A stretch of 50,343 nt of DNA from Parabacteroides distasonis (GTDB lineage: Bacteria; Bacteroidota; Bacteroidia; Bacteroidales; Tannerellaceae), in assembly GCF_004793765.1 (NCBI RefSeq), contig NZ_SRYM01000028.1:1-50343 (forward strand), written 5' to 3'. The position numbers were made by a program, and so were the translations under genes. A model generated the notes under the pieces. That model was not told where the DNA came from and did not search any database. It saw only the letters and a list, made by a program, of their open reading frames with translations. This document shows positions 6,850 to 48,530 of the stretch, in pieces (position 1 is the first letter of the stretch; each line of letters begins with the position of its first letter).

Positions 6850-6939
6850 ACTGCAAGCCGGGTTGCAGTACTACCGCAATGCGGATGCAGTAAGACTGCA
6901 ACGCCCATGCAGCGGCACTGCAATGCGGGTTGCAGTAAC
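6850..6939. repeat. Array of four 22-23-bp hairpin units
   Basis: Units start at 6850, 6873, 6895 and 6917. The outer two are perfect short hairpins, ACTGCAA, a 6-base loop, then TTGCAGT; the inner two are degenerate versions (ACCGCAA or ACTGCAA, then TGCAGT or TGCAGC). The gap between the SusC end and nadB is 221 bp, and this array fills about 90 of them. A longer alternative hairpin (TGCGGGTTG at 6924-6932 with CAACCCGCA at 6941-6949) overlaps the last unit, and the two folds exclude each other. The role is unknown; it may terminate the SusC operon or bind a protein. Confidence 0.8.
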
Positions 6940-7033
6940 ACAACCCGCAAGGCTGTATCCGGGAAACCTGTAGTCAATACTTATTTTTGTACGAAAAGCA
7001 AGCGCGAAAGGAACAACCAAATCAGTTAATCCC

Positions 7034-7041
7034 TAACTTTG
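7034..7041 (+). promoter_or_regulatory. -7 box of nadB
   Basis: TAACTTTG fits TAnnTTTG and lies 21 bases before the nadB ATG, so the leader would be only about 15 bases. A second match, TATTTTTG, is at 6982-6989. Confidence 0.5.
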
Positions 7042-7062
7042 TGAGCCTAAACAGTAAATAAT

Positions 7063-8634
7063 ATGGTACAGAGATTCGATTATTTAGTGATAGGCTCGGG
7101 AATCGCCGGTATGAGTTTCGCGCTGAAAGTAGCCAATGAAGGCAAGAGCGTAGCACTTATCTGTAAAGCCGGACAAGAAGAAGCCAACACATATTTCGCA
7201 CAAGGAGGTATCGCTTCCGTAACCAACTTGAAAGTAGATAATTTCGAGAAGCACATAGAAGACACGATGATCGCCGGCGACTGGATCAGTGACCGGGCAG
7301 CCGTGGAGAAAGTCGTGCGTGAGGCTCCCGCCCAGATCGAGGCGCTTATCCGATGGGGAGTTAATTTCGATAAAAAAGAAAGCGGAGAATTCGACCTGCA
7401 TAAAGAAGGAGGACACTCCGAGTTTCGTATCCTGCACCATGCCGACAATACGGGAGCCGAGATACAGACGAGCCTGATAGAAACGGTAAACAACCATCCC
7501 AACATCGCCGTATTCACGAATCATTATGCGGTAGAGATTATCACCCAGCATCATATGGGTATTATCGTCACCCGCCATACCCCCGGCATCAAATGTTTCG
7601 GTGCCTATGTATTAAACGAGGAAACGGGAGAGGTACATACTTTCTTGTCGAAGATAACCGTTATGGCAACCGGAGGCTGTGAGGCTGTCTACCGGAATAC
7701 GACAAACCCGCTGGTAGCTACCGGAGACGGTATCGCCATGGTCTACCGTGCGAAAGGCTCCGTAAAAGATATGGAGTTCATACAATTCCACCCAACCGCC
7801 TTGTTCCATCCAGGCGATCGTCCCTCCTTCCTTATCACGGAAGCGATGAGAGGGTATGGGGCCGTCTTGAGGAACCAGAGTGGCGAGGAATTCATGCAGA
7901 AATACGATCCCCGCCTTTCGCTGGCTCCTCGTGATATCGTAGCCCGTGCGATCGATAACGAGATGAAGCAACGGGGTGAAGACCATGTCTATTTGGACGT
8001 GACGCACAAAGATCCGGAAGAGACAAAGAAACATTTCCCCAATATCTATAAAAAATGCCTCAGCTTAGGGATCGATATCACGAAAGATTACATCCCGGTA
8101 GCCCCTGCCGCCCATTATTTATGCGGAGGTATCAAGGTAGACTTAAACGGGCAATCCAGCATCCGCCGGCTATACGCGATCGGAGAATGTTCTTGCACCG
8201 GCTTGCACGGTGGTAACCGATTGGCATCAAACTCATTGATCGAGGCAGTTGTATATGCCGACGCCGCGGCGAAACACTCATTAAGCGTCATGGATCGCTA
8301 TGAGTTCAACCAGGATGTACCGGAATGGAACGATGAGGGAACGATCACCAATGAAGAGCGTGTATTGATCACCCAAAGCATGAAAGAGGTAAACCAAATC
8401 ATGGAGGCGTATGTAGGTATCGTTCGTAGTAACACACGTTTGATCCGTGCATGGAACCGTCTGGATATTTTATATGAGGAGACAGAGAGCCTGTTCAAGC
8501 GTTGCAAGGCATCCCGGGAATTATGCGAGTTGCGTAATATGATCAATGTAGGTTATTTGATCACTCGTCAAGCGATGGAGCGGAAAGAGAGCCGGGGATT
8601 ACATTATACGATTGATTATCCACCGGTTAAATAA
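7063..8634 (+). CDS. nadB: L-aspartate oxidase
   Basis: This 523-residue flavoenzyme oxidises L-aspartate to iminoaspartate, the first step of de novo NAD synthesis; quinolinate synthase (nadA, at 34992) uses the product. The N-terminal FAD-binding motif is clear (VIGSGIAGMSFA). The family segments EFIQFHPTALF, the Arg-rich active-site stretch SLAPRDIVARAID, and the conserved GGIKVDLNGQSSI and LHGGNRLASNSLIEA are all present, followed by the helical C-terminal domain. Length is normal. It has its own promoter and a hairpin after the stop, so it is probably transcribed alone. Aspartate oxidase is preferred over fumarate reductase/succinate dehydrogenase flavoprotein because of the length, the NadB-like C-terminal domain and the lack of Sdh/Frd partner genes. 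Confidence 0.95.
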   Translation: MVQRFDYLVIGSGIAGMSFALKVANEGKSVALICKAGQEEANTYFAQGGIASVTNLKVDNFEKHIEDTMIAGDWISDRAAVEKVVREAPAQIEALIRWGVNFDKKESGEFDLHKEGGHSEFRILHHADNTGAEIQTSLIETVNNHPNIAVFTNHYAVEIITQHHMGIIVTRHTPGIKCFGAYVLNEETGEVHTFLSKITVMATGGCEAVYRNTTNPLVATGDGIAMVYRAKGSVKDMEFIQFHPTALFHPGDRPSFLITEAMRGYGAVLRNQSGEEFMQKYDPRLSLAPRDIVARAIDNEMKQRGEDHVYLDVTHKDPEETKKHFPNIYKKCLSLGIDITKDYIPVAPAAHYLCGGIKVDLNGQSSIRRLYAIGECSCTGLHGGNRLASNSLIEAVVYADAAAKHSLSVMDRYEFNQDVPEWNDEGTITNEERVLITQSMKEVNQIMEAYVGIVRSNTRLIRAWNRLDILYEETESLFKRCKASRELCELRNMINVGYLITRQAMERKESRGLHYTIDYPPVK

Positions 8635-8635
8635 T

Positions 8636-8684
8636 GAGAATTGAGAATTGAGAATTACTAGCTATGTTAATTCCCAATTCTCAA
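8636..8684. terminator. Hairpin between convergent nadB and rubrerythrin genes
   Basis: Three tandem copies of GAGAATT (8636-8656) can pair with AATTCTCAA at 8676-8684. It lies between two convergent genes and probably terminates both. Confidence 0.6.
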
Positions 8685-8694
8685 CTTTTAATTA

Positions 8695-9273
8695 TCAATA
8701 GTTCTGTTTCATCGGTTCAAAGTAAGCTTGCGGATGAGCGCATGCCGGACAAGTAACCGGAGCCTTCTTACCCTCGAATACGAAACCACAGTTACGGCAT
8801 TGCCAGAAGATAGCCTCATCTTTCTCGAATACTTTACCTTCCTCTACGTTAGCCAACAATTTACGATAACGCTTCTCGTGTTCAGCCTCTACCTTCGCGA
8901 TCATCTTAAAAGCTACAGCGATAGCGGGAAAACCTTCTTCCTCTGCGATCTTAGCGAACTCAGGATACAATTCAACCCACTCCTCATTCTCACCAGCTGC
9001 TGCTGCGGCCAAGTTCTCAGCGGTTGTTCCGATTACGCCTGCGGGATAAGAAGCGGTAATCTCAACCATTCCACCTTCCAAGAACTTGAAGAAACGTTTA
9101 GCGTGTTCCTTCTCTTGCTCGGCTGTTTCCATGAAAACCCCAGCGATTTGCTCGTAACCTTCTTTTTTAGCTACGCTAGCGAAAAATGTGTAACGACTTC
9201 TTGCCTGAGATTCTCCGGCAAATGATTTCAACAAATTCTGCTCGGTACGTGTACCTTTAATACTTTTTTCCAT
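8695..9273 (-). CDS. rbr: Rubrerythrin
   Basis: A 192-residue non-haem iron protein that reduces hydrogen peroxide in the cytoplasm of anaerobes. The N-terminal ferritin-like diiron domain shows the expected Glu/His ligands ([27 protein letters not shown] and EAEHEKRY). The C-terminal rubredoxin-like domain carries two CxxC knuckles (CRNC near residue 158 and CPAC near 175) for a single iron. The whole length is typical. It stands alone with its own promoter 64 bases upstream, which fits an oxidative-stress gene; regulator binding sites were not recognised. Confidence 0.95.
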
Positions 9274-9336
9274 ACTGCTAATTTTATGTAGTAAATTAAT
9301 GAGTCTGTTTTATATATCGTTTTTCTTATGACTGAT

Positions 9337-9344
9337 CAAAAGTA
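9337..9344 (-). promoter_or_regulatory. -7 box of rubrerythrin
   Basis: On the minus strand the bases read TACTTTTG, an exact TAnnTTTG match, giving a leader of roughly 55 bases before the rubrerythrin ATG. No good -33 element is visible. The remainder of the 9274-9560 gap is AT-rich and holds only this promoter and that of the transporter. Confidence 0.5.
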
Positions 9345-9503
9345 AGAATTTGTTTCTAGACATCGATTACGCAAACATTAAATAATATCTATCTCTCAAT
9401 AGACATCACTTATTTATCAAGGAACAACTTCTTCACTTTTTTATCATGAAACAACAAATCCTCCTAAATTGTTTACCCAAAACCGGAATGGGTCTTTATA
9501 TTT

Positions 9504-9532
9504 TTTGCATATTCTTTATTTTATTAACTTTG
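9504..9532 (+). promoter_or_regulatory. Promoter of the SulP transporter
   Basis: TTTG at 9504-9507 and TAACTTTG at 9525-9532 are separated by 17 bases, close to the TTTG-N19-TAnnTTTG arrangement of Bacteroidales housekeeping promoters. The ATG follows at 9561. Confidence 0.65.
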
Positions 9533-9560
9533 CATCCTCAAATCAACAGGCAAAAGAAAA

Positions 9561-11240
9561 ATGAAGAACAAATTTGATTTTCAGCCCAAACTCTTTACGG
9601 CGCTGAAAAATTATTCCAAAGAGAGGTTCATGACGGATCTCATGGCGGGTATAATTGTCGGCATAGTTGCCTTGCCACTCGCCATCGCTTTTGGTATCGC
9701 TTCCGGGGTAAGTCCGGAGAAAGGACTGATTACAGCCATTATCGGGGGATTCATCGTTTCCCTGCTGGGAGGTTGTAACGTACAAATCGGCGGACCTACG
9801 GGAGCGTTTATCGTAATCGTCTACGGCATTATCCAGAATTTCGGTATCGAGGGACTGGCAATCGCTACGGTCATAGCGGGAATCATTCTCGTATTGATGG
9901 GAGCTTTGAAACTGGGGACGGTCATTAAGTTCATCCCCTATCCGATCGTAGTAGGTTTTACGAGCGGTATCGCTGTCACGATCTTCACGACACAGATGAA
10001 AGACTTATTCGGATTGACAATGGATAAGGTTCCGGCAGATTTCATATCGAAATGGATCGCTTATTTCGGAGCGTTCGACACGGTGAACCCTTGGGCATTC
10101 GTCATCGGTATCATTAGTATCCTGATCATTACGTTAAGCCCGAGACTAACGAAAAAAATTCCGGGTTCCTTGATCGCTATCGTCATCATGACGATCGTTG
10201 TTTACATCATGCGTAATCATTTGGGTATTATAGGCATCGAGACAATTGGAGACCGATTCACGATTAACGCTTCTTTACCAGCCCCAGCTCCGATCACGTT
10301 CAATATGGAAACTATCAACTTATTGCTTCCCTCCGCCTTTACGATTGCTATCCTTGGGGCTATCGAGTCTTTATTATCCGCTACGGTAGCGGATGGTGTG
10401 ACAGGCGACAAGCATAATTCGAATACGGAACTAATCGCCCAAGGCGCAGCGAATATCATCGTTCCTATTTTTGGTGGTATTCCCGTGACCGGCGCCATCG
10501 CCCGCACAATGACCAATATAAATAATGGTGGACGAACCCCGGTTGCCGGTATTATTCACGCCATCGTATTATTATTGATCTTGCTTTTCCTCGGGCCGCT
10601 TACCAAGCACATTCCAATGGCTTGTCTGGCTGGCGTATTGATCATCGTATCTTATAATATGAGTGAGTGGCGTACGTTCCGTTCCTTGATGAAAAACCCG
10701 AAAAGCGATGTATCCGTTTTATTGGTGACTTTCTTCCTGACGGTTATCTTTGATCTTACGATCGCTATCGAGATCGGCCTTCTGATCGCCATGTTATTCT
10801 TTATGCGCCGTGTAGCCGAGACCACGCATGTATCTGTTACCACGGATGAAATCGATCTTTCCGACGAGGGCGAGATTCATCATGACGAGGAAGTCCTCTC
10901 CCTGCCTAAAGGCGTAGAGGTGTACGAGATCGACGGCCCGTTCTTTTTCGGCGTGGCGAATAAATTCGATGGTATCATGAAAAGTATGGGAGATAAACCG
11001 AAAGTCCGCATCATCCGTATGCGTAAGGTTTCGTTCATAGATTCCACCGGTCTGCATAACTTGGAAAGTCTTTTCCGTCTTTCCGAGGCAGAGCATATCC
11101 ATATGATCCTTTCGGGTGTCAATGAACATGTACACCGTGTATTGACAAAATCCGGATTCGACAAGAAGATCGGCGCGGAAAATATTTGCAGTAATATCAA
11201 TGAGGCGGTAGAGAAAGCGAAAGCTGCCGTACAAGTCTAA
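9561..11240 (+). CDS. SulP/SLC26-family anion transporter with STAS domain
   Basis: A 559-residue inner-membrane transporter. The first 420 residues are strongly hydrophobic with the family's early segment (MAGIIVGIVALPLAIAFGIA, then GPTGAFIVIVYGI) and about 12-14 membrane segments. The cytoplasmic C-terminus from about residue 440 is a STAS domain (VRIIRMRKVSFIDSTGLHNL). SulP proteins carry sulfate, bicarbonate or dicarboxylates, often with sodium or protons. The substrate cannot be decided here because no carbonic anhydrase or sulfate-assimilation gene is adjacent. It is flanked by its own promoter and a 17-bp hairpin, so it looks monocistronic. Confidence 0.93.
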   Translation: MKNKFDFQPKLFTALKNYSKERFMTDLMAGIIVGIVALPLAIAFGIASGVSPEKGLITAIIGGFIVSLLGGCNVQIGGPTGAFIVIVYGIIQNFGIEGLAIATVIAGIILVLMGALKLGTVIKFIPYPIVVGFTSGIAVTIFTTQMKDLFGLTMDKVPADFISKWIAYFGAFDTVNPWAFVIGIISILIITLSPRLTKKIPGSLIAIVIMTIVVYIMRNHLGIIGIETIGDRFTINASLPAPAPITFNMETINLLLPSAFTIAILGAIESLLSATVADGVTGDKHNSNTELIAQGAANIIVPIFGGIPVTGAIARTMTNINNGGRTPVAGIIHAIVLLLILLFLGPLTKHIPMACLAGVLIIVSYNMSEWRTFRSLMKNPKSDVSVLLVTFFLTVIFDLTIAIEIGLLIAMLFFMRRVAETTHVSVTTDEIDLSDEGEIHHDEEVLSLPKGVEVYEIDGPFFFGVANKFDGIMKSMGDKPKVRIIRMRKVSFIDSTGLHNLESLFRLSEAEHIHMILSGVNEHVHRVLTKSGFDKKIGAENICSNINEAVEKAKAAVQV

Positions 11241-11252
11241 GATACCATCAGA

Positions 11253-11288
11253 TTTGTAGAGACGGGGCACGCCCCGTCTCTACAAATA
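11253..11288. terminator. 17-bp perfect palindromic hairpin between convergent genes
   Basis: The arms at 11253-11269 and 11272-11288 are perfectly complementary (ATTTGTAGAGACGGGGC and its complement) with a two-base loop. It lies between the SulP and phosphoesterase genes, whose 3' ends face each other. From memory, similar GTAGAGACGGGGC-type palindromes recur in many Bacteroidota genomes, so it may also be a dispersed REP-like element. Confidence 0.8.
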
Positions 11289-11293
11289 GGTAT

Positions 11294-12739: not shown

Positions 12740-12772
12740 GTTCTTCGATTTTGTAATTGGGGGCTAAGTTAT

Positions 12773-12807
12773 AAAAAAAAGAGAGCGATGTATAAAAACA
12801 GGCTCTC
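12773..12807 (-). terminator. Rho-independent terminator
   Basis: Read on the minus strand: GAGAGC, a 15-base loop, GCTCTC and then eight T. It ends the outer-membrane-protein/small-protein cluster before the phosphoesterase gene. Confidence 0.7.
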
Positions 12808-12843
12808 TTCCTTATGTTAAATGCCACAATGAAACCCTTGCTG

Positions 12844-13002: not shown

Positions 13003-13070
13003 AATTCTCGTTGTTTTTATCGTAAGACAGGAAACGCTCAAATACCCCTATCCTCAAAATATATAAAAGA

Positions 13071-18834: not shown

Positions 18835-18926
18835 TTTCAGAGAAGATATACTTACTTGGCAAAGTAATATATACTGCGTTGGCAAAGTAAATATATCTTC
18901 TCCGGAAAAGTAAGTAGTATTGCTTT
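18835..18926. repeat. Array of 23-bp units upstream of the TPR regulator
   Basis: Three direct units start at 18858, 18881 and 18904, each opening with GGCAAAGTAA or GGAAAAGTAA: period exactly 23. A fourth element in the opposite orientation (18840-18857) is complementary to 18885-18902 with one mismatch. The array lies about 90 bases upstream of the regulator start and just after the end of the ATPase gene. No gene is visible in the 187-base gap. Confidence 0.75.
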
Positions 18927-18932: not shown

Positions 18933-20255
18933 TTACATATCTTCCAATGACAAACAGACAGGATTTATCTGATATTTCGATAATAACTTATTCTTCAAAC
19001 GCTCTACTTTCGCGGCGAATTGCTCCGGCTTGAAATTTTTCTTCTGTCGTTTCACCTCCGCTACTAACGCCACTTTTTTCTCTAATTCCAAAGCTACGAT
19101 ATCAATCTCATCCTGCCCGTTCCTCGTGTCCCACCATGAGCCGATGGCACGATAGCGAAAGCTCTCGGCCAATCGCTGCTTGAAGTATTTCTCTAATAAC
19201 TTACCCGAATAAGTAGGATAGTCGGCCTCTATGATAGACCGCAAGCCTACAAAATTTTTGATCTCTATCAAAGAGCGATAACGGTCAAAATAGTTGAACC
19301 AAAAACGAATAAAGTTATCTGTTATCTCGTATCGGACGGTTTGGGAACCTTCTTTCGCCAAGATAGGACGTTGCCTTACAATAATATCGTAATCCTCGAT
19401 CAGTCTTTTTATTTGCCCTCCTATACTCTTGTTGCCTAGAGCGGCCTCTATCTCCGGCTGTGTATTGATTCCTCCCGAGATCGCACTTAATATGGAAAAA
19501 TAGGTGGCGTAATTCTTACCGAACTCCTCTATCAACAGGTTTTTTCCCTCATCGGTAAACGGGGAGTTATCCCTAACCATGAAATCGATCATCTCATTCA
19601 CGCTCAACGCATCGTTGTCACAAAAAAGCTCCACGTATTTAGGAATTCCACCGGAAAACGCATAGAGCGCCAACAGATCGTCGTTCGTATACGTGGGTCT
19701 GTGATCTCGCATAATCTCTTTGAGTGTCGATAAATCGAAAGCCGACAACTTGATTATATTATCCGACCTGCCAAACAAGGGTTCTTTCGAGTGCTGGAAT
19801 ATCTTCAACATCAACGAATAAATAGATCCGGAAACGACCAGGTTCATCCGGGACTTACCCCGGTATTGATCCCATATATTTTGCATGTCGCTATATACCG
19901 ACTCGTTTATATTGTAAAACTCCTGAAACTCGTCTATGACCAAATTGAATGATTGTCGCATGGCTAATTCCATCAAATAACGAAATAGCGAACGAAACGT
20001 ATTTATCTCGTTAGGTACATAGGTATTCAAAGATTGAGATATGATCGGAATGTATTCGGCGCAAAGAGTCGCCTCATTCTTGCGCCCGACAAATAGATAA
20101 ACGGTAGGCATTCCTTCTACAGCCTTCATTACGAGACTTGTCTTACCGATACGCCGTCTTCCGGTCACGACAGTCAGCCGAGAATGGTCTTTGAAGGCCA
20201 AGTTCCCGATACGTCTCAATTCCGCTAATTCACTTTCTCGATCATAGAATCTCAT
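18933..20255 (-). CDS. AAA ATPase of the ATPase_2/DUF234 type
   Basis: A 440-residue protein with Walker A TGRRRIGKTS near residue 31-40, Walker B NLVIDEFQEF near 108-117, a winged-helix-like middle (about 225-300) and a C-terminal DUF234-type region with a nuclease-like signature (DEIDIVALELEKKVALVAEVK). Such ATPases occur in isolated copies in gut Bacteroidota and archaea; their biological role is unclear. The D-Ile-D plus E-x-K pattern recalls the PD-(D/E)xK fold and could mean DNA cleavage, which is inference. The promoter carries a tandem 15-bp repeat that may allow autoregulation. Confidence 0.85.
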   Translation of the reverse strand: MRFYDRESELAELRRIGNLAFKDHSRLTVVTGRRRIGKTSLVMKAVEGMPTVYLFVGRKNEATLCAEYIPIISQSLNTYVPNEINTFRSLFRYLMELAMRQSFNLVIDEFQEFYNINESVYSDMQNIWDQYRGKSRMNLVVSGSIYSLMLKIFQHSKEPLFGRSDNIIKLSAFDLSTLKEIMRDHRPTYTNDDLLALYAFSGGIPKYVELFCDNDALSVNEMIDFMVRDNSPFTDEGKNLLIEEFGKNYATYFSILSAISGGINTQPEIEAALGNKSIGGQIKRLIEDYDIIVRQRPILAKEGSQTVRYEITDNFIRFWFNYFDRYRSLIEIKNFVGLRSIIEADYPTYSGKLLEKYFKQRLAESFRYRAIGSWWDTRNGQDEIDIVALELEKKVALVAEVKRQKKNFKPEQFAAKVERLKNKLLSKYQINPVCLSLEDM

Positions 20256-23451: not shown

Positions 23452-23687
23452 CGCATTCTAATATCTTTCAGATAGGGATAATGTATAGCAATACGAGGCA
23501 GGCTCTATTGTCTATATAGCATAAAAAAGCCTTCTACCTTATCTTTATGCTTCTAAATAGAAGCTAATAGTGACAATGCTTTTCTTTGAATTAGACAAAC
23601 TAGAAGCCGAGAAGAGCGATAAAATACCCTTTGGGGTGGAAATATCCCCGTTTTCGGGTGCGAAAGGCGGCGAAAGCCTACACGTAT

Positions 23688-23797
23688 AGTCGCATTTGGC
23701 TATGCCAATACTGCCGTTGGGCATTATAAACAGTCACGAATAGGGTTGTCAGTAGTCGTGAATGGGCATCGTAACCCGGTTAGAACCCAGTCGTAAC
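23688..23797. repeat. Degenerate array of 22-bp units upstream of the DUF4143 ATPase
   Basis: Starting at 23688 the sequence can be cut into five 22-base units. AGTC opens units at 23688, 23732 and 23754, and ACTG the one at 23710. GTAAC closes the units ending at 23775 and 23797. ATAGGGTT (23740-23747) is mirrored by AACCCTAT (23795-23802). The units are more degenerate than in the other arrays. The rest of 23452-24067 holds a small hairpin (23549-23564) and no convincing gene. Confidence 0.55.
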
Positions 23798-24067
23798 CCT
23801 ATCGGATAGTCCAAAGAAATCAATGGATATGAATTAAGATGAATTATTTCCGCTAGAATGAAAGGCCGTTTTTCGGTATCGCATTATCAATGAAAGGATT
23901 GCCGATTTTTTCTTGCGAATTTGGCGACGAGCCGCACTTGAGCCCAGAAAAATCGATTCTCCGGAGGTTCCGTTTACAAATTGTCAAAATGTCAAACATG
24001 AACATGTCCCGGGATATTGTACCAAGTTGTAAAGGAAGCGATAGCGGAAATAATCGTTATTGCTCCG

Positions 24068-34991: not shown

Positions 34992-35978
34992 ATGTTGACA
35001 AACCAATCAATCGGGTACATGGATGCGCCCGTTCCTAAGGATTTAGACCTTAAGGAAGCGATCGACAAGTTACGTAAGGAGAAGAATGCGGTTATATTGG
35101 CGCATTACTATCAAACTGGCGATATACAGGATATAGCGGACTATGTGGGAGACAGTCTGGCCTTGGCGCAATGGGCGGCTAAGACGAAGGCGGATATCAT
35201 CGTGCTTTGCGGGGTTCACTTTATGGGAGAGACAGCGAAGATCCTTTGTCCGGATAAGAAAGTGCTGGTACCGGACTTGAATGCCGGTTGCTCCTTGGCG
35301 GATAGTTGTCCGGCTCCGGAGTTCGCCGAGTTCGTCAAGCAACATCCCGGTCATACGGTAATCTCTTACGTGAATACGACTGCCGCCGTGAAAGCGGTCA
35401 CGGATGTGGTAGTTACTTCCACGAACGCCCGTCAGATCGTGGAGAGCTTCCCGGAAGGTACACCGATAATTTTCGGCCCGGATCGTAACTTGGGTAATTA
35501 TATCAATAGCATCACGGGACGTAATATGTTGCTTTGGGATGGCGCTTGCCATGTGCATGAGCAATTCTCGTTGGAGAAGATCTTATTTTTGAAGAAGAAG
35601 TACCCGAACGCGGAAGTGATCACCCATCCGGAATGCAAGCAGCCGGTTATACAGGTCTCAGATTTTGTAGGATCGACCGCGGCCTTGCTGAAGCATACCA
35701 TTAAGTCCGACGCGAAACAATTCATTGTAGCGACGGAAAGTGGCGTTATTCACGAGATGCGTAAGCAGAGTCCGGATAAGGAGTTCATCCCGGCTCCTCC
35801 GAACGACAGCACTTGCGCTTGCAACGAATGTAATTTCATGCGCTTGAACACGATGGAGAAGCTATATAATTGCTTGAAGTTCGAGATGCCGGAGATATTC
35901 GTGGACGAGGAGGTACAGAAGAAAGCGATCAAACCGATCAAGAAGATGCTGGAGATCTCTGAGAAGCTGGGACTCTGA
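34992..35978 (+). CDS. nadA: Quinolinate synthase A
   Basis: A 328-residue iron-sulfur enzyme that condenses iminoaspartate (made by NadB) with dihydroxyacetone phosphate to quinolinate in NAD synthesis. Characteristic segments are AHYYQTGDIQDIADYVGDSL, CGVHFMGETAKIL, PDLNAGCSLADSCPA, THPECKQPVIQ and the C-terminal CACNECNFMRLNTMEKLYN. These contain the conserved cysteines from which the three [4Fe-4S] ligands are drawn. Length is normal. It is alone, with a hairpin terminator after the stop; nadB is at 7063 in this window and nadC is not seen. Confidence 0.96.
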   Translation: MLTNQSIGYMDAPVPKDLDLKEAIDKLRKEKNAVILAHYYQTGDIQDIADYVGDSLALAQWAAKTKADIIVLCGVHFMGETAKILCPDKKVLVPDLNAGCSLADSCPAPEFAEFVKQHPGHTVISYVNTTAAVKAVTDVVVTSTNARQIVESFPEGTPIIFGPDRNLGNYINSITGRNMLLWDGACHVHEQFSLEKILFLKKKYPNAEVITHPECKQPVIQVSDFVGSTAALLKHTIKSDAKQFIVATESGVIHEMRKQSPDKEFIPAPPNDSTCACNECNFMRLNTMEKLYNCLKFEMPEIFVDEEVQKKAIKPIKKMLEISEKLGL

Positions 35979-36316: not shown

Positions 36317-36426
36317 AAAACAAAAGTTTTCCCCATATAAAACTTTTGTTTTCATAGAAGGAAACTTCTGTTTTCTATAGGGGAAACTTTTGTTTCCCTA
36401 GGGAGAAACCATTTGCTTCGCTACCC
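36317..36426. repeat. Array of five 22-bp dyad units upstream of the TonB-dependent receptor
   Basis: Units start at 36317, 36339, 36361, 36383 and 36405, exactly 22 bases apart. Each has the core AAAC, four bases, GTTT, usually extended to GAAAC/GTTTC; in the fourth unit GGGAAAC and GTTTCCC form a perfect 7-bp stem. The fifth is degenerate. It lies about 75 bases before the receptor's -7 box. Confidence 0.85.
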
Positions 36427-36499: not shown

Positions 36500-36507
36500 T
36501 ACTTTTG
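36500..36507 (+). promoter_or_regulatory. -7 box of the outer-membrane receptor gene
   Basis: TACTTTTG fits TAnnTTTG. Because it overlaps an upstream in-frame ATG at 36505, translation must start at the next one, 36538. Confidence 0.6.
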
Positions 36508-36537
36508 CGTAGAAATCTAATTGTAATTCTCAATATC

Positions 36538-38958
36538 ATGAAAAAGATAGGACTAATGTTGGCCTTATTATGGGTGATTTGCGCTCTCTCATGGGCTTCT
36601 TCTTCGGATGCCCGTATTAAGGGGCAGTTAATAGATGCCTCTACGAATCAAGTAATTAATTATGCGGATATCTTTCTGTTTACGATGGGAAGTGAGAAAC
36701 CTTTGCAACAGACTTTTCCGGACGATCAAGGACGTTTCTCCTTTACTAAGATAGCCCCGGGTAGTTATGTGGTCATGGTTCGTTTGATGGGATATGATGT
36801 GTTGACAAGGAATGATATAACCTTGAATGCCTCGGCTCCGGTGGATTTAGGTAAGTTGATGATGAATCCCTTGGAGGTAGGCATCGCTGAGGTGGAGGTA
36901 GTGGCCGAGAAACGCCAATTGGTTTATAAGCTGGATAAGAAAGTGGTCGAGGCTTCCTCCAATATGATGGGAGGAGGCGGTTCCGCCGTGGACATATTGG
37001 AGAATACGCCTTCCATACGGGTAGATGCGGAAGGCGATGTCACTTTCCGTGGAAGCAGCGGCTTTTTGGTTTACATAGATGGTAAGCCGAGTGTCTTCTC
37101 GGGTACACAGGCTTTGGAGCAAGTCCCGGCCGGGCATATAGAGAATATAGAGATTATCACGACGCCCTCCGCCAAGCACGATACGGAAGGCGACGTGGGT
37201 ATCATTAATATTATCACGAAGAAGCATTCCCAGCGGGGATTGAGCGGGATGGTGAATCTTTCGGGAAGTACATGGCTTTCCCGTCATGTCGATTTCTTGT
37301 TGGCACAGCAACATCAGCGTTCCCGTTGGTACGTCGGTGGACAATGGACGGATCGTATGCGCAAGAGTGATTTCGACCAAGAGAAGAAGACGGTCGTCGG
37401 CGATCAAACAACGACTTCGCATTCCGTCGGGCCTCGTACGGGAGACAGTTACCATTATACGCTGAAAGGCGGTTGGAGCTTGAATCTTCCCAAGACAACC
37501 ATCGCGTTGGATCTGGAAGGGGGCTATGGCGGAAATAAGCGTAAGGGAGAGATGACTTATAAGGAAACCCGCTCGACGGCGGGCCGCTCTCCGGTGACGG
37601 AAGATTATCGAAGCATAGATGATTATGATAATGATGAGAATATAGGCTTGGGAAGTCTGGCGGTACAGCATAAGTTCAACGATAAGGGACACGAGCTTTC
37701 CGGTAGCACCTATTACAAATATGGCGGTCATGCCTTGGAATATTTCTTTAATGACTTGATGTCCTTGGAAGGACAACGCCAACAGGGGCACCGTGCTTAT
37801 GAGGCCGAGCACCGGGAAACGATGCGTATCAATCTGGATTACGCCTTGCCTTTCGGGAAGGGAGGCAAGCTAGAGGCGGGTTACCAATATTATTCCTATC
37901 TGGAAGACGGCGATTACAATATGGAATGGTGGGACCCCGAGGGGCAGACGTTCTTTTGGCGTGACGATATCTACAATACGTTTTATTTTCAGGAAGGGGT
38001 GAATTCTATCTATACGATTCTTTCGCATACGTGGAAGAATTTAGAGGCGCAAGCGGGCGTTAGGGGAGAGCATACGCATACGGTCTTGCGAAGTTCCGTG
38101 GAGGGAGCGGACCGTACGAAGAACCGCTTTGAGTTTTTCCCATCGGTGCATTTGGGCTATACGTTCCCGAATGAGCATCGATTGTTGGCTTCCTATTCCC
38201 GTCGTACCACACGTCCGCAGCTTTTCTATATGGAGCCTTATATCACGTATCGCGACTTTTATACGGCCGAGATCGGTAATCCGGATATACGTCCGGAGTA
38301 CATCAACTCCTTTGAAGTGAACTACCGGAAGAATTTCGGGGAAAATACGGTATCCGCCACCGCCTTTCATCGGTATCGGAAAGATAAGATCGAGCGATTG
38401 CGAGTTCCTTATTCAGCCGGTGTAACCTTGGATTCGATGGCGAACGTAGGACATGATTACTCGACGGGTATCGAGCTAAGCGTCAGCCTGCATCCGGTGC
38501 GCTGGTGGAATACCACGGTCAACGGAAACGTTTATCACTATAAGGTAAAGAACGAACAGGCCGCCGGTGGAAATACGACCTCAAGCACCAATTACGATAT
38601 CCTATGGAACAACCTGTTTAATCTGGGAAAATACACTCGTATCCAGCTGGATGGTAGTTTTGTAGGCCCTTCCGTAACGACGCAAGGCCGCACGGACGCT
38701 TATTGGTACGCGAACGTAGCCGTCCGCCAGCAACTATGTAACCGAAAACTAACCGCCACCTTAGCTTTCCGGGATATTTTCCGTTCCGCCAAATATATCA
38801 GCGATATTCAAACGGCAGATTTACGCTCCTTGACACGTATTAAACCCAAATATCCACAAATCACATTGACATTGAGTTGGACATTTAATAGTTTCAAGGC
38901 TAAATCTACCCAAGCGAAAGAAGATCGCTCGGAGATGTTCGAGGGTATAAAGCATTAA
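36538..38958 (+). CDS. TonB-dependent receptor-like outer-membrane protein (OMP_b-brl_3 type)
   Basis: From MKKIGLMLALLW the product has 806 residues: signal peptide (about 20), a carboxypeptidase-regulatory-like domain (about 22-105, IKGQLIDASTNQVINYADI), a plug (about 120-215, VDILENTPSIRVDAEGDVTF; GIINIITKKHSQRG) and a long beta-barrel of the outer_membrane_beta-barrel family. There is no SusD partner. The family takes up or exports unknown ligands, possibly metals or peptides. It is flanked by a 22-bp array and promoter upstream and a strong hairpin downstream, so it is monocistronic. Confidence 0.88.
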   Translation: MKKIGLMLALLWVICALSWASSSDARIKGQLIDASTNQVINYADIFLFTMGSEKPLQQTFPDDQGRFSFTKIAPGSYVVMVRLMGYDVLTRNDITLNASAPVDLGKLMMNPLEVGIAEVEVVAEKRQLVYKLDKKVVEASSNMMGGGGSAVDILENTPSIRVDAEGDVTFRGSSGFLVYIDGKPSVFSGTQALEQVPAGHIENIEIITTPSAKHDTEGDVGIINIITKKHSQRGLSGMVNLSGSTWLSRHVDFLLAQQHQRSRWYVGGQWTDRMRKSDFDQEKKTVVGDQTTTSHSVGPRTGDSYHYTLKGGWSLNLPKTTIALDLEGGYGGNKRKGEMTYKETRSTAGRSPVTEDYRSIDDYDNDENIGLGSLAVQHKFNDKGHELSGSTYYKYGGHALEYFFNDLMSLEGQRQQGHRAYEAEHRETMRINLDYALPFGKGGKLEAGYQYYSYLEDGDYNMEWWDPEGQTFFWRDDIYNTFYFQEGVNSIYTILSHTWKNLEAQAGVRGEHTHTVLRSSVEGADRTKNRFEFFPSVHLGYTFPNEHRLLASYSRRTTRPQLFYMEPYITYRDFYTAEIGNPDIRPEYINSFEVNYRKNFGENTVSATAFHRYRKDKIERLRVPYSAGVTLDSMANVGHDYSTGIELSVSLHPVRWWNTTVNGNVYHYKVKNEQAAGGNTTSSTNYDILWNNLFNLGKYTRIQLDGSFVGPSVTTQGRTDAYWYANVAVRQQLCNRKLTATLAFRDIFRSAKYISDIQTADLRSLTRIKPKYPQITLTLSWTFNSFKAKSTQAKEDRSEMFEGIKH

Positions 38959-41980: not shown

Positions 41981-42005
41981 CATCGTACAAAGTAAATAAA
42001 AATAT

Positions 42006-43121: not shown

Positions 43122-43858
43122 TTGAAAATAAAGTGGTTACTGTCGTAATGCCTGCTTATAACGCCGAAAAGACGTTAGAACAAACTTATCAAGAGATTCC
43201 TTTTGATATAGTAGATCATGTGATTTTGGTGGATGACAAAAGCAATGATGAAACAGTAAAAAAAGCACGTGAGTTAGGTATTAAACATATTATTTCTCAT
43301 GAGATAAATAAGGGATACGGGGGAAACCAAAAAACTTGCTATGATAAGGCACTTGAGTTGAAATCGGATATTGTGATTATGCTTCATCCAGATTATCAAT
43401 ATACACCTAAATTGATACATGCTATGACTTATGTGATTGCGGATGATGTCTATCAAGTAGTCTTTGGTTCGCGGATTTTAGGAAAAGGGGCTTTAAGAGG
43501 TGGAATGCCTATTTATAAATATATAAGTAATCGTGTACTTACATTGATACAAAATATATTAATGAATAATAAGTTATCTGAGTATCATACGGGATATAGG
43601 GCTTTTTCGTCTGAGGTCTTAAAATCCATTGATTATAAGAAATGTTCGGATAATTTTGTTTTTGATAATCAAGTAATCGCTCAGATATGTGATAAAGGTT
43701 ATGAAATAGCCGAGGTTACTTGTCCTACAAAATATTTTCCTGAAGCTTCTTCTATTAAGTTATACAATAGTATGGTGTACGGATTGGGAGTATTAGGTGT
43801 AGCTTTTCAGTATTTTTTACATAAGGTGAGAATAAAAAAATATAGAATTTTGAAGTAG
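43118..43858 (+). CDS. GT2 glycosyltransferase, DPM1/polyprenyl-phosphate type
   Basis: A 246-residue GT-A-fold enzyme: VTVVMPAYNAEKTLEQTYQE at the N-terminus, HVILVDDKSNDET for nucleotide binding, NKGYGGNQKTCYDKAL, the metal-binding-type IVIMLHPDYQYTPKLI and the acceptor-side YHTGYRAFSSEVLKSI. There is no C-terminal membrane segment. It resembles dolichyl/undecaprenyl-phosphate sugar transferases. It is translationally coupled to the preceding membrane protein. The sugar is not evident. Confidence 0.88.
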   Translation: MIENKVVTVVMPAYNAEKTLEQTYQEIPFDIVDHVILVDDKSNDETVKKARELGIKHIISHEINKGYGGNQKTCYDKALELKSDIVIMLHPDYQYTPKLIHAMTYVIADDVYQVVFGSRILGKGALRGGMPIYKYISNRVLTLIQNILMNNKLSEYHTGYRAFSSEVLKSIDYKKCSDNFVFDNQVIAQICDKGYEIAEVTCPTKYFPEASSIKLYNSMVYGLGVLGVAFQYFLHKVRIKKYRILK

Positions 43859-43870
43859 TATTTATATCAC

Positions 43871-43908
43871 AAAAAAGAGCTGTTTTCTATTCAAAGCAGC
43901 TCTTTTTT
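43871..43908. terminator. Bidirectional terminator
   Basis: A 12-bp perfect stem (AAAAAAGAGCTG and CAGCTCTTTTTT) with a 14-base loop and T-runs on both strands, between the convergent GT2 and YitT-family genes. Confidence 0.92.
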
Positions 43909-43919
43909 GCATGAAACAT

Positions 43920-44798
43920 TTAAGTCTTTATCTGATCGAACCCCTCACCGTATACTCCTCGGACGATACTTTGGGAGATGAACGCTTGGTGGTCTATCCG
44001 CTTCACGATCCGGAAGATGGAGACGGATTCGGATTTCTTGGCGAGTAGTACGACTACCTTGACGGGTTTGCGGGAATAACCGCCCTCGCCGTCCAGTATC
44101 GTGCAGCCGCGGCCTAACTCATGGATGATACGATCCGCTATCTCGTCGTACTTCTGGGAGAAGATAAGGAATTGTACGGATTGGCGGTTACCGTTCAATA
44201 CCATGTCGAGTACGTAATTACTTATGACCATCTCTACAAAACCGAAAACAATCTTGTCCACGTTATGGAACAGGAAGAAAGAGGAACTAATGATGAAGAA
44301 ATCGCAAAACAGAAGGATACGTCCGATCGATATATTCTTATATTTATTGATTACCGCACCAATAATATCCGTACCTCCGGTACTACCGTTTGCCGAGAAT
44401 ACCAATCCTAGTCCGGCACCGCACATGAACGCTCCTATTATGATACCCATAAACGGTTGGTCTTGCAGTATGGGTTGTCCTTTCAGCAACCATTCAAAGA
44501 AGGAGAGGGAAGCGGATAGTGAGAAAACTCCGAAAATAGTTTTTATCAAGAATTTTAGACCAAGGATCTTTAAGGCTACCACCAACAAGGCTACGTTGAT
44601 GACAAAATAAGATACGGATACCGGGATCAATCCATTGGAAGCAAAGAAGATCAATGCGCAGATACCACTTACCCCACCTGTTACGATCTCGTTAGAGAGG
44701 ATAAAGGCGTTGAATCCGAATCCGTATAATAAAGTTCCGAACAGGATCATTAGATAATCCTGTACGGAAAAATAGATTTTTGTGAATTTTAAGTTCAT
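43920..44798 (-). CDS. YitT-family membrane protein (DUF161 plus DUF2179)
   Basis: A 292-residue protein: five or six membrane helices ([56 protein letters not shown]) typical of the YitT/DUF161 family and a soluble C-terminal DUF2179 domain ([20 protein letters not shown]). Function is not established. Its ATG overlaps the leuS stop by four bases (ATGA) and it has no own promoter, so it is transcribed and translated with leuS. Confidence 0.9.
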
Positions 44799-47635
44799 CC
44801 CACTACGATATTAACGATTTTGCCGGGAACGACAATTACCTTCTTAACAGTCTTGCCTTCCATCCATTTCGCTGAGTTCTCATGATTCAAAGCCGCTTTC
44901 TCGGCGTCCTCCTTAGAAATATCTGCCGGTAGCTCTAGGTTGTAGCGAGCTTTACCATTGAATGAGATCGCGTAAACAACGGATTTCTCCTTGAGATATT
45001 CTTCGTTGTGTTCCGGCCACTGAGCATCGCAGATGGTCGTATCATGTCCTAATTGATGCCATAGCTCTTCCGCTATATGAGGAGCGAACGGAGCCAATAA
45101 GGTGATCAGCGGCTCCAAGATGGCGCGCTTGCTGCATTTTAAGCTCGTTAACTCGTTCACGCAAATCATGAAGGCGCTAATGGACGTGTTGTATGAGAAA
45201 TGCTCGATGTCGAACGTTACTTTCTTGATCAGCTTATGCAAGGATTTCAATTCGTCGGCCGTAGGCTCGGCATCGGTAACTTGTAGGGTATCCGTATTGC
45301 CGAAGAACAAACCCCAAAGCTTCTTTAAGAAACGGTGTACGCCGTCGATACCGTTCGTATCCCAAGGCTTGGATTGCTCCAGCGGGCCTAGGAACATCTC
45401 GTACAAACGTAGGGTATCGGCACCATATTTCTCAACGATCATATCCGGGTTCACTACGTTGAACATGGATTTGGACATCTTCTCGACTGCCCATCCGCAG
45501 ATATATTTACCATCTTCCAATACGAACTCCGCATCGTTGTATTCCGGACGCCAGTTCTTGAAAACCTCTATATCTAACAGGTCGTTAGATACGATATTTA
45601 CGTCTACGTGGATAGGGGTGACCTCGTATTGGTCTTTCAAGTTCAAGGAAACGAATTTATTGGTTCCGTTGATGCGGTACACGAAGTTCGACCGTCCTTG
45701 GATCATACCTTGGTTGATCAATTTCTTGAACGGCTCTTCCTCGCAAACGATACCCAAGTCGAATAAGAACTTATTCCAGAAACGGCTGTAGATCAAGTGG
45801 CCGGTAGCGTGTTCCGTACCACCGATATATAAATCCACGTTTCTCCAATATTCATCCACGTCTTTAGCGACCAAGGCTTTATCATTACGCGGGTCCATAT
45901 AGCGCAAATAATAAGCGGAAGAACCGGCGAAGCCCGGCATCGTACAAAGTTCCAGCGGGAAGATCGTCTGGTTATCGATCTTTAATACCTCGGTGACTTT
46001 TTGGTTTACCGTGTCCCAAGCCCATTTAACGGCGTGTCCTAATGGAGGCTCGCCCGTCTCGGTAGGCAAGAATTTATCTACTTCCGGCAGTAACAGGGGC
46101 AGACATTCTTCCGGCAACATCTGAGGCATGCCATCGGCGTCGTAATATACCGGGAACGGTTCGCCCCAATAACGCTGGCGGCTGAAGATAGCGTCGCGCA
46201 AGCGGTAGTTTATCTTCACACGTCCCAGATCGTGATCTTTTACGTATTTCTTGGTAGCGGCTATCGCTTCCTTGATCGTCAGTCCGTTCAAGGAAAGATC
46301 GCAATAAGGAGTAATGTCGGCTCTCGGAGAATTGCATACGATACCTTCCTTGGCATCGAAACTTTCCTCGCTTACGTCGCAACCTTCCACCAACGGACGG
46401 ATTTCCAGTCCGAAATGCTTCGCGAAAGCGTAGTCGCGGCTATCGTGCGCCGGAACCGCCATGATCGCTCCCGTACCGTAGCCGGCCAATACATAGTCGC
46501 TGATCCAGATGGGAACCGCCTCGCCCGTAAACGGGTTAATAGCGTAGGAACCACTGAATACACCGGTTACCTGACGGTCGGCGATGCGCTCGCGCTCGGT
46601 ACGTTTCTTGGTGCGATCTAGGTAAGCGTCTACTTCCGCTTTTTGGTCTGCCGTAGTTAATTGTTGAACCAATTCGCTTTCCGGAGCTAATACCATGAAG
46701 GTAACACCAAACATCGTATCGGCACGGGTCGTAAAGATCGTGAATTCCCTGTCGCTGTCTTTTACCTTGAAGCGAACCTCGGCACCTTCGCTGCGTCCGA
46801 TCCAGTTCTTTTGGGTCTCTTTCAAGGAATCCGTCCAGTCGATCGTATCCAATCCGTCCAACAGGCGTTGCGCGTAAGCGGATACACGTAAGCACCATTG
46901 GCGCATGATCTTTTGTTCCACCGGATAGCCTCCACGCTCGGAAACACCGTTCACGACCTCATCATTCGCTAATACGGTACCCAAGGCGGCACACCAGTTT
47001 ACCATGGTCTCGCCACGATAAGCGATCCGGTAGTTGAGTAATATCTCTTGTTTTTCTTTATCGCTCTTGGCTTTCCATTCCTCGGCGGTGAAACTAAGTT
47101 CCTCTCCGCAAGCTACGTTCAGACCTTCCGTACCACTTGTCTCGAAGGCTTGTATCAACTCGCTGATCGGGCGGGCTTGCTTCTCGTCGTTGCAGTAGTA
47201 GCTGTTGAACATCCGGATGAAGGCCCATTGCGTCCATTTGTAATATTCGGGATCACAGGTACGGATCTCACGGCTCCAATCGTAGCAGAAACCGATCTTT
47301 TCCAATTGCTCCCGATAACGGGCTATATTATTTTTTGTCGTGATCTCCGGATGTTGTCCGGTCTGGATGGCGTATTGCTCTGCGGGCAATCCGTAAGCGT
47401 CGTAACCCATCGGGTGCAATACGTTAAAACCTTGCAAACGTTTGAAACGCGAATAAATATCAGAAGCTATATAACCGAGCGGGTGGCCAACGTGCAATCC
47501 CGCACCGGAAGGATAGGGGAACATGTCCAATACATAGTATTTAGGCTTATTCGTGTCTTTTTCGACTTTATAAACCTTTTCGGCAATCCAGTAGTCGTGC
47601 CACTTCTTCTCAATCTCTCTGAAATTGTACTCCAT
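44795..47635 (-). CDS. leuS: Leucyl-tRNA synthetase
   Basis: A 946-residue class I synthetase that charges tRNA-Leu. The HIGH signature is HVGH at residues 48-51 ([18 protein letters not shown]) and the KMSKS motif is exact at residues 719-723. The CP1 editing domain is visible in between (about 225-430, with [15 protein letters not shown] and [19 protein letters not shown]), and an anticodon-binding and C-terminal domain follows. Bacteroidota enzymes are of this length. A TAACTTTG -7 box lies 41 bases before the ATG. Confidence 0.98.
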
Positions 47636-47675
47636 GATCGTTTATCGTTTTTGTATCGTTTTCTATTTAAGGCCA

Positions 47676-47683
47676 CAAAGTTA
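47676..47683 (-). promoter_or_regulatory. -7 box of leuS
   Basis: Minus-strand TAACTTTG, an exact TAnnTTTG match, gives a leader of about 35 bases. I did not recognise a T-box or attenuator. The gap 47684-47801 shows nothing else. Confidence 0.55.
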
Positions 47684-47801
47684 GTGAATTTATTTATTTT
47701 ATATGAGTTATTTACATGAACTGTTTATTTCACGTAACCAATCCGGGGGCGAGATTGATTCTCGGTTCTTTTCGCTTGTAACTCAGCGAGTGACAGATTG
47801 A

Positions 47802-47978
47802 TTAGCTCAAGTTGCGTACGGGTATCTTCGTGTTTAAGATACTGCTGAGCATCGCTACTCCTAATTCTGTAAATGCGTAAGGATTACGTCTTAGTCCCAT
47901 TTTTATAGAATTGGACATCACAATTTGTGATTTCCAATTATCTACTTCCTCATTTGTTAGTTGAAACATGAAATCATC
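47802..47978 (-). pseudogene. Internal/C-terminal fragment of an ORF6N-domain protein
   Basis: A 58-codon frame with no start of its own reads DDFMFQLTNEEVDNWKSQIV, then RRNPYAFTELGVAMLSSIL and ends NTKIPVRNLS. It matches the ORF6N (KilA-N-like DNA-binding) domain and parallels the neighbouring fragment (DDFMFELTKEEL, AFTELGVAMLSSVL) with many differences. It lacks the N-terminus and ends much earlier than normal family members. It is a relic fused directly to the next fragment. Confidence 0.75.
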
Positions 47979-48265
47979 GGGAGCACACTACTAAGCATAG
48001 CCACCCCTAATTCCGTGAAAGCAAAAGGTTTATATTTGAAATTACTACCTCTTCCTTTATTCAAGATACCAAATTGGCATCTTGAAAGTTCCTCCTTGGT
48101 TAACTCAAACATGAAATCATCTCCTTCAAAGCGTTCTATATTACGTCTGACCGCACGTTTCAATTGGGCTGTTTCCGTTCCATACATTTCCGCCAGATCA
48201 AAATCCAGCATGACTTTCATACCTCTGATCTCGTGAATCTTGTTTTGTATCGTTTGTAATTCCAT
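47957..48265 (-). pseudogene. Truncated ORF6N-domain DNA-binding protein
   Basis: A 102-residue frame with a normal start (MELQTIQNKIHEIRGMKVML) and a clear ORF6N domain (DFDLAEMYGTETAQLKRAVR, then FAFTELGVAMLSSVL). ORF6N proteins, known from phages and accessory regions, usually have a further C-terminal domain. Here the coding breaks near 47980: the last residues (PMISCFN) are an out-of-frame reading of the second fragment. Two related genes were therefore joined by deletion. The fragment may still be expressed as a small DNA-binding protein. Confidence 0.75.
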
Positions 48266-48442
48266 AGTGAAGATTTTAGTTTAATATTATGGTCGCAAAG
48301 GTTTGTAAAATAATTGAGATAAGCAATAAGCTAGTTGGATATTTATGATTGGTTGCATTTGTAAGTTGTACAATGAATTATTGCTGATCCGGCTTATTGT
48401 CTATTTTTTATGTGTTCTTATTTTCCTTATAAGATTTCCGGG

Positions 48443-48530
48443 AAAAACACGTACGTGATTTATGAAAAACACGTACGACTTTTCGGAAAAACATGTACGT
48501 GTTTTACGGAAAACATGATGATGTTTTTAT
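48443..48530. repeat. Array of four 22-bp dyad units upstream of the second TPR regulator
   Basis: Units start at 48443, 48465, 48487 and 48509, exactly 22 bases apart. Each opens with AAAAAC or GAAAAC and contains a dyad of the form AAAACA, a 6-base centre such as CGTACG, TGTTTT. The last has AAAACAT and ATGTTTT around GATG, a perfect 7-bp stem. It ends about 30 bases before the regulator's -7 box, i.e. just upstream of the promoter. The rest of the 406-base gap has no gene. Confidence 0.85.

Follow-up and report, generated by a model that had tools for sequence, protein, structure and literature searches.

The question raised by this locus, a 50,343-bp window (the whole stretch of DNA analysed) of Parabacteroides distasonis contig NZ_SRYM01000028.1, was whether short intergenic arrays of different unit sequence are tied into one class by their pitch: the initial annotation had described five such arrays with a common 22–23-bp period. 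The comparison covered this P. distasonis-like genome (G000), a sister species (G001), and a second P. distasonis strain (TSDC17.2-1.1). Gene calls came from a simple script based on ORFs and codon scores, with no gene finder, and arrays were detected at an author-set unit-identity threshold varied from 0.60 to 0.66, arrays under 60–66% identity being missed. The G000 stretches came from contigs already carrying matches and were taken at arbitrary positions, the later ones being chosen for synteny.

Four of the five sites (A1, A2, A4, and A5) were arrays with a 22–23-bp period in the tandem-repeat test (Table 1), and the claim of five arrays thus stood except at A3. There, TRF gave an 11-bp repeat only for 23688–23797, and local autocorrelation at 60% identity gave nothing; A3 belonged to a dispersed element with the recurrent right end ...AATGTCAAA, no long ORF seen, 11 further full or partial matches in G000, and about 20 places in G001. 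A3 is not a 22-bp array. As for gene context, A1 began 8 bp 3′ of the stop codon of gene 4763–6841, encoding a TonB-dependent receptor barrel; A2 sat 6 bp past the stop codon of a minus-strand ATPase/DUF234 gene (18933–20255; Pfam); and A4 was flanked by nadA (34992–35978) and an outer-membrane barrel gene (36505–38958). The near-identical repeats and unique spacers of a CRISPR array were not found by eye, since the units either abutted or were separated by a few bases, and had diverged from one another.

Table 1. Repeat sites A1 to A5 in the window
Site	Position	Organisation	Unit positions	Motif or assignment
A1	6850..6936	87-bp element, four dyad units, 3-nt spacers	6850-6869, 6873-6891, 6895-6913, 6917-6936	ACTGCA-N7/8-TGCAGT
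A2	~18835..18926	23-bp units		TRF, dispersed family
A3	~23529..23996	piece of 470-490-bp dispersed element		contains the initially annotated 23688-23797
A4	36317..36426	five units, exact 22-bp steps	cores at 36318, 36340, 36362, 36384, 36406	AAAC cores
A5	48443..48530	four units	starts at 48443, 48465, 48487, 48510	AAAACACGTACGTGTTTT-type dyads

The autocorrelation analysis was applied to 816 kb of G000, and 36 of the 38 strong intergenic periodicities (gap-by-lag matches, lags 12–40) fell at 21–23 bp, while none of 569 coding pieces displayed strong periodicity at these lags. In a set of 181 G000 gaps, lags 21, 22, and 23 gave 3, 12, and 4 matches, respectively, and 20 dinucleotide shuffles of the same gaps gave no match at any lag from 12 to 45. 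G001 had 15 of 16 intergenic periodicities at 21–23 bp, and the threshold was reached by two of its 674 coding pieces (one at 21 and one at 22). The proposed pitch common to unrelated units was thus borne out as a sharp peak far above chance, with an excess of zero in shuffled and nearly zero in coding sequence. The peak recurred in TSDC17.2-1.1, in Phocaeicola massiliensis (six arrays in 150 kb), and in scattered Bacteroidales; no 21–23-bp array was found in 100 kb of Escherichia coli (39 gaps, 11.5 kb). Another sample consisted of 80 named loci (the best 80 of 135) retrieved with the ATPase gene 18933–20255 as query; this gene proved to be a dispersed paralogue, which ruled it out as a guide to orthologous sites, and the 80 loci therefore served only as an arbitrary sample. 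They gave 33 matches at lags 12–40, some being multiples of shorter repeats (e.g., L132:20442); 18 were at the common pitch, 17 of these in the 59 loci of Bacteroidales type, a class assigned by us from record titles. The 22–23-bp arrays are genuine and more general than the five window sites.

The unit sequences had been taken as locus-specific, which was overturned by BLAST against the own genome: each window site belonged to a family of 12–21 places in G000. At E≤1e-3, A1 to A5 gave 30, 26, 12, 18, and 22 rows, corresponding to 21, 19, 12, 12, and 12 distinct places (strands merged, window site counted), respectively. Some A2 copies (L010 and L019) were near-perfect long palindromes (by eye). 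In 25 relatives, with first-look candidates scored in part, the only row from these families was a weak A1 match in G001. The 48 arrays found in 19% of the G000 genome fell into 26 BLAST sequence clusters, which ruled out one shared regulator with a single motif. Carriage by phages or plasmids was also rejected: one viral contig was a candidate match to an A1 pattern and none matched an A5 pattern, and the matches labelled as plasmid were TSDC17.2-1.1 records, chromosomal-looking by gene content.

Placement upstream of promoters, as initially described, gave way to a preference for gene 3′ ends: in G000, 28 of every 40 arrays (70%, n=40) had a 3′ end as their nearest gene end (41% expected; p=0.001), as did 67% of the 18 arrays in G001 (42% expected; p=0.03), and 12 of 40 arrays versus 50 of 297 gaps lay between convergent genes (Fisher p=0.023); p values of several of the position and dyad tests are per-test values uncorrected for multiple testing.

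The strain comparison was confined to the 18 of 48 G000 arrays with both flanks comparable in TSDC17.2-1.1 DNA. Arrays did recur in this strain, 16 of the 18 sites being occupied (one by an array unrelated in sequence) and the other two holding a single unit. Neither refuting condition set initially, a lack of excess over shuffled sequence or absence from other strains, was borne out. A1 had four units in the window genome and one in TSDC17.2-1.1, A4 had one additional 22-bp unit in TSDC17.2-1.1, and A5 was retained. Array length changed between strains by whole units (21, 22, and 67 bp). In 11 array gaps, from which L067 with its 133-bp difference at the array edge was excluded, the arrays had 75 substitutions, no small indels, and three indels of 22, 22, and 67 bp, versus 344 substitutions and 25 small indels in other gaps (Fisher p=0.013 for the small-indel deficit); outside the arrays, these 11 gaps likewise had no small indels (0 per 41 substitutions). 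The deficit suggests, on the small number of 75 substitutions, that array phase is protected against small indels. The substitution rate was 6.9% in arrays versus 4.0% in other gaps (p=2e-5).

Array replacement and absence were observed as well. At L063:10514, two P. distasonis strains harbored unrelated arrays (227 versus 224 bases compared) between flanks about 96% alike, and both arrays had the same unusual 24-bp pitch. In G001, an unrelated 22-bp array lay upstream of the same outer-membrane barrel gene as A4; an extra gene was also present at this site. An alignment of eight sites in G001 gave no recognisable array at four, which suits dispensable elements; at one site the array was cleanly missing in G001, with a length difference of 99 bp and no clear target duplication (by eye), the other sites being too diverged.

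Dyad symmetry, claimed initially as frequent, was found for 41 of 90 arrays at p≤0.05 (column-permutation test), the other 49 having no significant dyads. In held-out units, Watson–Crick pairing was kept in 103 of 188 double changes (null 0.389±0.039), and none of 200 permutations reached the observed value. Between strains, stems were no better conserved than elsewhere, and a single compensatory pair among 144 left strain-level compensatory change unsupported.

Arrays with many families at one pitch, dispersal, whole-unit gain and loss, faster substitution, and dyad-partner covariation may well form a numerous class of short intergenic elements, dispersed in Bacteroidales genomes and acting, or copied, as phased dyads at gene 3′ ends, a reading that we favour tentatively. 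On this reading they are a REP/BIME-like 3′-end class whose spacing is conserved beyond sequence, probably owing to a need for the dyads to share one DNA face. The spacing would be kept by a requirement that dyads on duplex DNA stay in phase for the elements to act or be copied: the few units per array, two helical turns apart and mostly just 3′ of genes or between convergent genes, would have each dyad extruded, or bound by a putative dyad-reading protein, on one helix face, by analogy with the E. coli REPs as gyrase targets. The elements would act as boundaries where transcripts end, by relieving supercoils, protecting the transcript ends, or insulating; the regulatory role and the cooperative protein binding proposed initially are putative. 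Unit number would rise and fall through slippage or recombination, and a putative copying process that is not RAYT-based would seed new sites.

REP/BIME elements are among the closest known systems. GTAG- and CGTC-tagged REPs are short intergenic palindromes with many copies, hairpin potential, and strain variation; those of E. coli lie at ORF 3′ ends and are gyrase targets, and CGTC REPs apparently lack a dedicated transposase (passages of PMC3733652). The arrays are likewise multi-copy, intergenic, and 3′-end-placed, with palindromic units in about half, but they differ in that each has a few units, arranged head to tail and spaced by two helical turns, and in spreading over 26 clusters. A RAYT-driven REP system was ruled out, as Y1_Tnp (PF01797), the sole transposase family searched, was found in none of 16 genomes of the genus (12 at ≥90% completeness and ≤5% contamination) and in 5 of 14 control genomes. 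Neisserial dRS3/NIME arrays, dispersed in intergenic regions, have conserved palindromic arms with variable centres, a resemblance in another phylum and with another sequence.

BrickBuilt of Porphyromonas gingivalis is a minisatellite-MITE with contiguous 23-nt units, intergenic location, 19 copies in one strain, and predicted stem loops, forming one sequence family with a leader, a tail, and 12-nt IS5-like terminal repeats (passages of PMC4596501). The present arrays resemble it in their contiguous tandem units of about 23 nt, intergenic location, and Bacteroidales host, while the A1 arrays were units alone, with no common leader or tail in the flanks (by eye); 14 of the 21 A1 loci were exactly 87 bp long as scanned. 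A1 end units were rejected as mutual inverted copies (centre similarity 0.700 versus 0.671 expected, p=0.12). The same text mentions 22- and 23-nt tandem direct repeats in P. gingivalis W83, the same pitch in the same bacterial order, said to be given without exact locations or comparison; those passages do not speak of a pitch that is general and independent of sequence. The initial term "undescribed" therefore holds only in part.

A BrickBuilt-like origin would make the arrays selfish, non-autonomous, functionless MITE-like repeats, mobilised by a transposase in trans and landing where they do least harm at 3′ ends. The precedent of 23-nt units, the families of 12–21 places, their turnover among the 25 relatives, the clean array-absent site in G001, and a 3′ bias that fits promoter avoidance all agree with such an origin. 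Against it, inspection of the A1 ends by eye gave neither a target duplication nor any terminal inverted repeat that recurred outside the units; the BrickBuilt-type terminal inverted repeat (GAGACCTTTGCA type) had three matches (≤2 mismatches) in the window versus 3.1 expected; and the lack of Y1 transposase in the 16 genomes also weighs against it. We regard this origin as possible but on the whole unlikely, and the same grade applies to its companion view that unit-number change is plain minisatellite slippage at an ancestral pitch; families could merely inherit one pitch, but one pitch across 26 clusters calls for an additional reason.

RNA elements offer an improbable alternative, in which transcription of the array within the 3′ UTR yields consecutive hairpins halting exonucleases or polymerase. 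The 3′-end placement, the enrichment between convergent genes, and the held-out covariation are in keeping with it, and G000 has, at one conserved site, a sequence that by eye reads as a terminator-like hairpin, with terminator-like hairpins there in several other species. Sense-strand G-U over A-C mismatches displayed no significant excess (7:10; four settings 17:10, 12:11, 18:16, and 16:10), leaving the row of RNA hairpins suggested initially with no significant strand-specific support; the window had no Rfam match at gathering scores, which rejected a known RNA family, and a hairpin row leaves the fixed 22-nt pitch without a reason. Quasi-palindrome correction plus slippage alone, with hairpin-templated mutation making palindromes and covariation, slippage making tandem copies, and no selection, is very improbable, since the high substitution rate, whole-unit changes, and palindromic A2 copies agree with it but the 21–23-bp dominance, nearly array-free coding DNA, and absence from the E. 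coli sample go unexplained.

The phased-dyad reading has a stronger form, which we consider rather doubtful: the arrays would be genome-wide Bacteroidales 3′-end boundary elements conserved in geometry rather than sequence, as rows of dyads held at two helical turns and read by a putative structure-sensing protein, with unrelated arrays swappable at one site without loss of function. It is prompted by the unrelated same-pitch arrays at L063:10514 (24 bp) and by the A4 barrel gene (22 bp). Were spacing the decisive property, one array could stand in for an unrelated one, and re-spacing by half a turn would abolish function. Dispersed bacterial repeats are normally recognised via shared sequence; sequence clustering would miss a spacing-invariant class and split it into dozens of minor families. 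As whole-unit VNTRs, the arrays provide sites that vary between strains of abundant gut bacteria, and they are a candidate for how the transcription units of these bacteria get bounded.

Local periodicity was scored wherever a 44-bp segment matched its own sequence, displaced by 12-45 bp, at 66% identity or more, in the window plus 20 stretches of 20 kb from its own genome (G000), with genes called by a simple script. The 181 intergenic gaps gave 3, 12, and 4 matches at lags 21, 22, and 23 and one at lag 30, the remainder being harmonics at 42 and 44 only, while 304 coding pieces gave one match each at lags 12 and 24. The initial annotation had made an intergenic excess of period 22-23 a condition for its arrays, and this excess stood against both controls: twenty dinucleotide shuffles of the 181 gaps yielded zero matches, and none occurred at lags 21-23 in 569 coding pieces of G000, whose enlarged sample (816 kb, lags 12-40) held 5, 22, 9, 1, and 1 matches at lags 21, 22, 23, 24, and 30. 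The signal was sharp in local arrays but visible and modest in the pooled global autocorrelation (z = 6.2, 5.9, and 4.1 at lags 21-23; lags 9 and 15 had 5.5 and 4.5). The 48 arrays of G000 fell into 26 BLAST clusters, the largest having five. Two nearly identical 23-bp-pitch arrays lay on one contig, C144 (L064:138-204 and L065:3193-3259); their flanks were near-identical as far as printed, perhaps representing a longer duplicated block.

Five arrays of 22-23 bp with locus-specific units had been described in the window (A1 to A5). Four were recovered by TRF and direct reading, while in A3 TRF found only an 11-bp repeat and autocorrelation gave no signal at 60%; A3 was instead a piece of a dispersed element whose recurrent right end lies at 23996. 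The units proved to be family-specific, as each of A1 to A5 matched further places in G000 (4.21 Mb in 177 contigs searched).

Arrays and associated features of the window; BLAST rows at E<=1e-3 for A1 to A5 include the self-match and both-strand rows of one site, and distinct places are our own count from these rows
Feature	Window position	BLAST rows in G000	Distinct places in G000	Other copies
A1	6850-6936	30	21	
A2	~18835-18926	26	19	
A3	23688-23797	12	12	
A4	36317-36426	18	12	
A5	48443-48530	22	12	
Dispersed element, 470-490 bp	23529-23996	12		G000: L022-L032; sister species G001: L231, L234, L236, L238, L240
ORF6N-domain gene(s) adjoining A5	47957-48265			L324:3598-5331

The dispersed element occupied about 20 places in G001; its right end closed with repeated TGTCAAA, and no terminal inverted repeat was obvious by eye. 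Beside A5, three tandem ORF6N genes were annotated in P. distasonis TSDC17.2-1.1 versus one called in the window.

Members of the A1 family are copies of a defined element: 14 of the 21 loci scanned spanned exactly 87 bp, with four dyad units, each 19 or 20 bp, separated by 3-nt spacers, and a further locus spanned 89 bp; by eye, three of the remaining six could be completed to 86-88 bp, two contained three units, and one stayed incomplete. Parsing of 18 of these loci (504 arm pairs) gave 16 paired changes keeping Watson-Crick pairing versus 9 not, plus 65 one-sided changes, counts that carry no null and include at least three poor parses.

Reverse-complement symmetry was significant in 41 of 90 arrays from six sets (column permutation). 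When one unit supplied the dyad axis and the remaining units served as the test, pairing was kept in 103 of 188 double changes versus 39±4% under column permutation, and in none of 200 permutations was the fraction as high as observed. Against this dyad evidence counts the strain comparison, where array stems were not better kept than comparable stems elsewhere (compensatory pairs, 1 of 144). G-U preference on the sense strand of the arrays was not significant.

A 3' end was the nearest gene end for (i) 70% of 40 arrays in G000, versus 41% expected under uniform placement (p=0.001) and 57% within the same gaps (p=0.02), and (ii) 67% of 18 arrays in G001, versus 42% (p=0.03) and 50% (p=0.04), respectively. 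Per kb of gap, G000 arrays were most frequent between convergent genes and fewest between divergent ones. This placement recalls the REPs of E. coli, which the available portion of PMC3733652 gives as gyrase targets. A search covering only the Y1/RAYT type of transposase found no such gene in 16 Parabacteroides genomes, which suggests that the arrays may have dispersed by another route.

Both window halves and five of six further 20-kb G000 regions matched TSDC17.2-1.1 at 91-97% over large parts; the sixth, L061, was not matched by the records of this strain in the plasmid collection. These matches place G000 within P. distasonis or very close to it. Plasmid-labelled TSDC17.2-1.1 records (NZ_OY7257xx-NZ_OY7258xx and OY7260xx; Parabacteroides and Phocaeicola) look chromosomal, the Parabacteroides ones encoding, for example, leuS, rho, an rpoD-type sigma factor, and ribosomal proteins. 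Both flanks of 18 of the 48 G000 arrays were present in the fetched TSDC17.2-1.1 DNA, and 11 of these 18 arrays were retained at equal length, including A5, where a 584-bp strain difference fell outside the array. Elsewhere, (i) two sites differed by exactly 22 bp, namely A4 (five units in G000 versus six) and L059:13495; (ii) two A1 sites, that of the window and L070:19284, had four units versus a single one, a 67-bp difference; (iii) L067:17253 had diverged, with a 133-bp difference at the array edge; (iv) at L071 the array was kept and its neighbouring tail changed by net 8 bp; and (v) between convergent genes, the array at L063:10514-10581 was wholly replaced (L325:11588; 227 versus 224 bases compared), both alleles having a 24-bp pitch and flanks about 96% identical. 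Taken the other way round, 15 of 24 TSDC17.2-1.1 arrays could be compared with G000, and L351:46654, of 21-bp pitch, differed by 21 bp.

Rates were compared using cleanly orthologous gaps, 11 holding arrays and 49 plain, excluding three gaps for a length difference >150 bp and four for identity <80%, a filter that the replaced site L063:10514 would fail. Arrays contained 75 substitutions in 1081 bases, three unit-size indels, and no small indels, versus 344 substitutions in 8688 bases and 30 indels (25 of them <=8 bp) in plain gaps. The substitution excess had p=2e-5; the small-indel deficit (p=0.013) is only suggestive, since the portions of those array gaps lying outside the arrays (41 substitutions in 1020 bases) likewise had zero indels.

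Between species, eight G000 arrays aligned with G001 (about 92% identical in longer blocks) were read by eye: one was conserved (L059:7956), two were partly kept, one was a weak AT-rich case, and four had no recognisable array in G001, one of these being a clean 99-bp difference between the stop codon and a terminator-like hairpin. At the A4 site, between nadA and an outer-membrane barrel gene, G001 had an unrelated 22-bp array immediately 5' of that barrel gene, as well as an extra gene (L242:598-1504, contig C37) absent from the window. The gap at L059:13495, 3' of a conserved gene, held a detectable array in two of nine other Parabacteroides (23 bp in G002; 22 bp with unrelated units in G009) and, by eye, terminator-like hairpins in several other species; the NAD synthase gap held one in none of ten.

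The pitch recurred in (i) G001 (943 kb), with 1, 8, and 6 matches at lags 21, 22, and 23 and one at 33, its 674 coding pieces giving one each at 21 and 22; (ii) twelve stretches of four other Parabacteroides, with 1, 2, and 2 and zero at remaining lags up to 40 (the total minus the G001 match); (iii) Phocaeicola massiliensis (150 kb), with three each at lags 21 and 22; and (iv) the best 80 of 135 named loci (1.18 Mb), with 3, 14, and 1 and at most three at each other lag up to 40, a small number of the matches there being multiples of shorter repeats. Of these 18 matches, 17 lay in 59 loci that we classed as Bacteroidales-type by our own grouping. E. coli K-12 (100 kb; 39 gaps, 11.5 kb) had none at lags 21-23 and one at 18.

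No general Bacteroidales description of such arrays was recognised in open-licence PMC text. The available portion of PMC4596501 describes BrickBuilt, a P. gingivalis MITE whose units are 23 nt long, and notes tandem repeats of 22 and 23 nt for strain W83; the portions available of a P. gingivalis resequencing paper (PMC5771137), which leaves short repeats unannotated, and of the B. thetaiotaomicron transcriptome papers PMC10994844 and PMC7366714 do not mention such arrays.

The fixed spacing common to unrelated units would point to the geometry of duplex DNA. About 22 bp makes two turns of DNA, so that all dyads would face the same way. That the arrays are selfish repeats with an inherited pitch is a serious rival to this reading; a row of RNA hairpins would fit worse, because hairpins would tolerate any spacing. 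Dyads on one face would better fit a cooperative or structural reading of the DNA itself.
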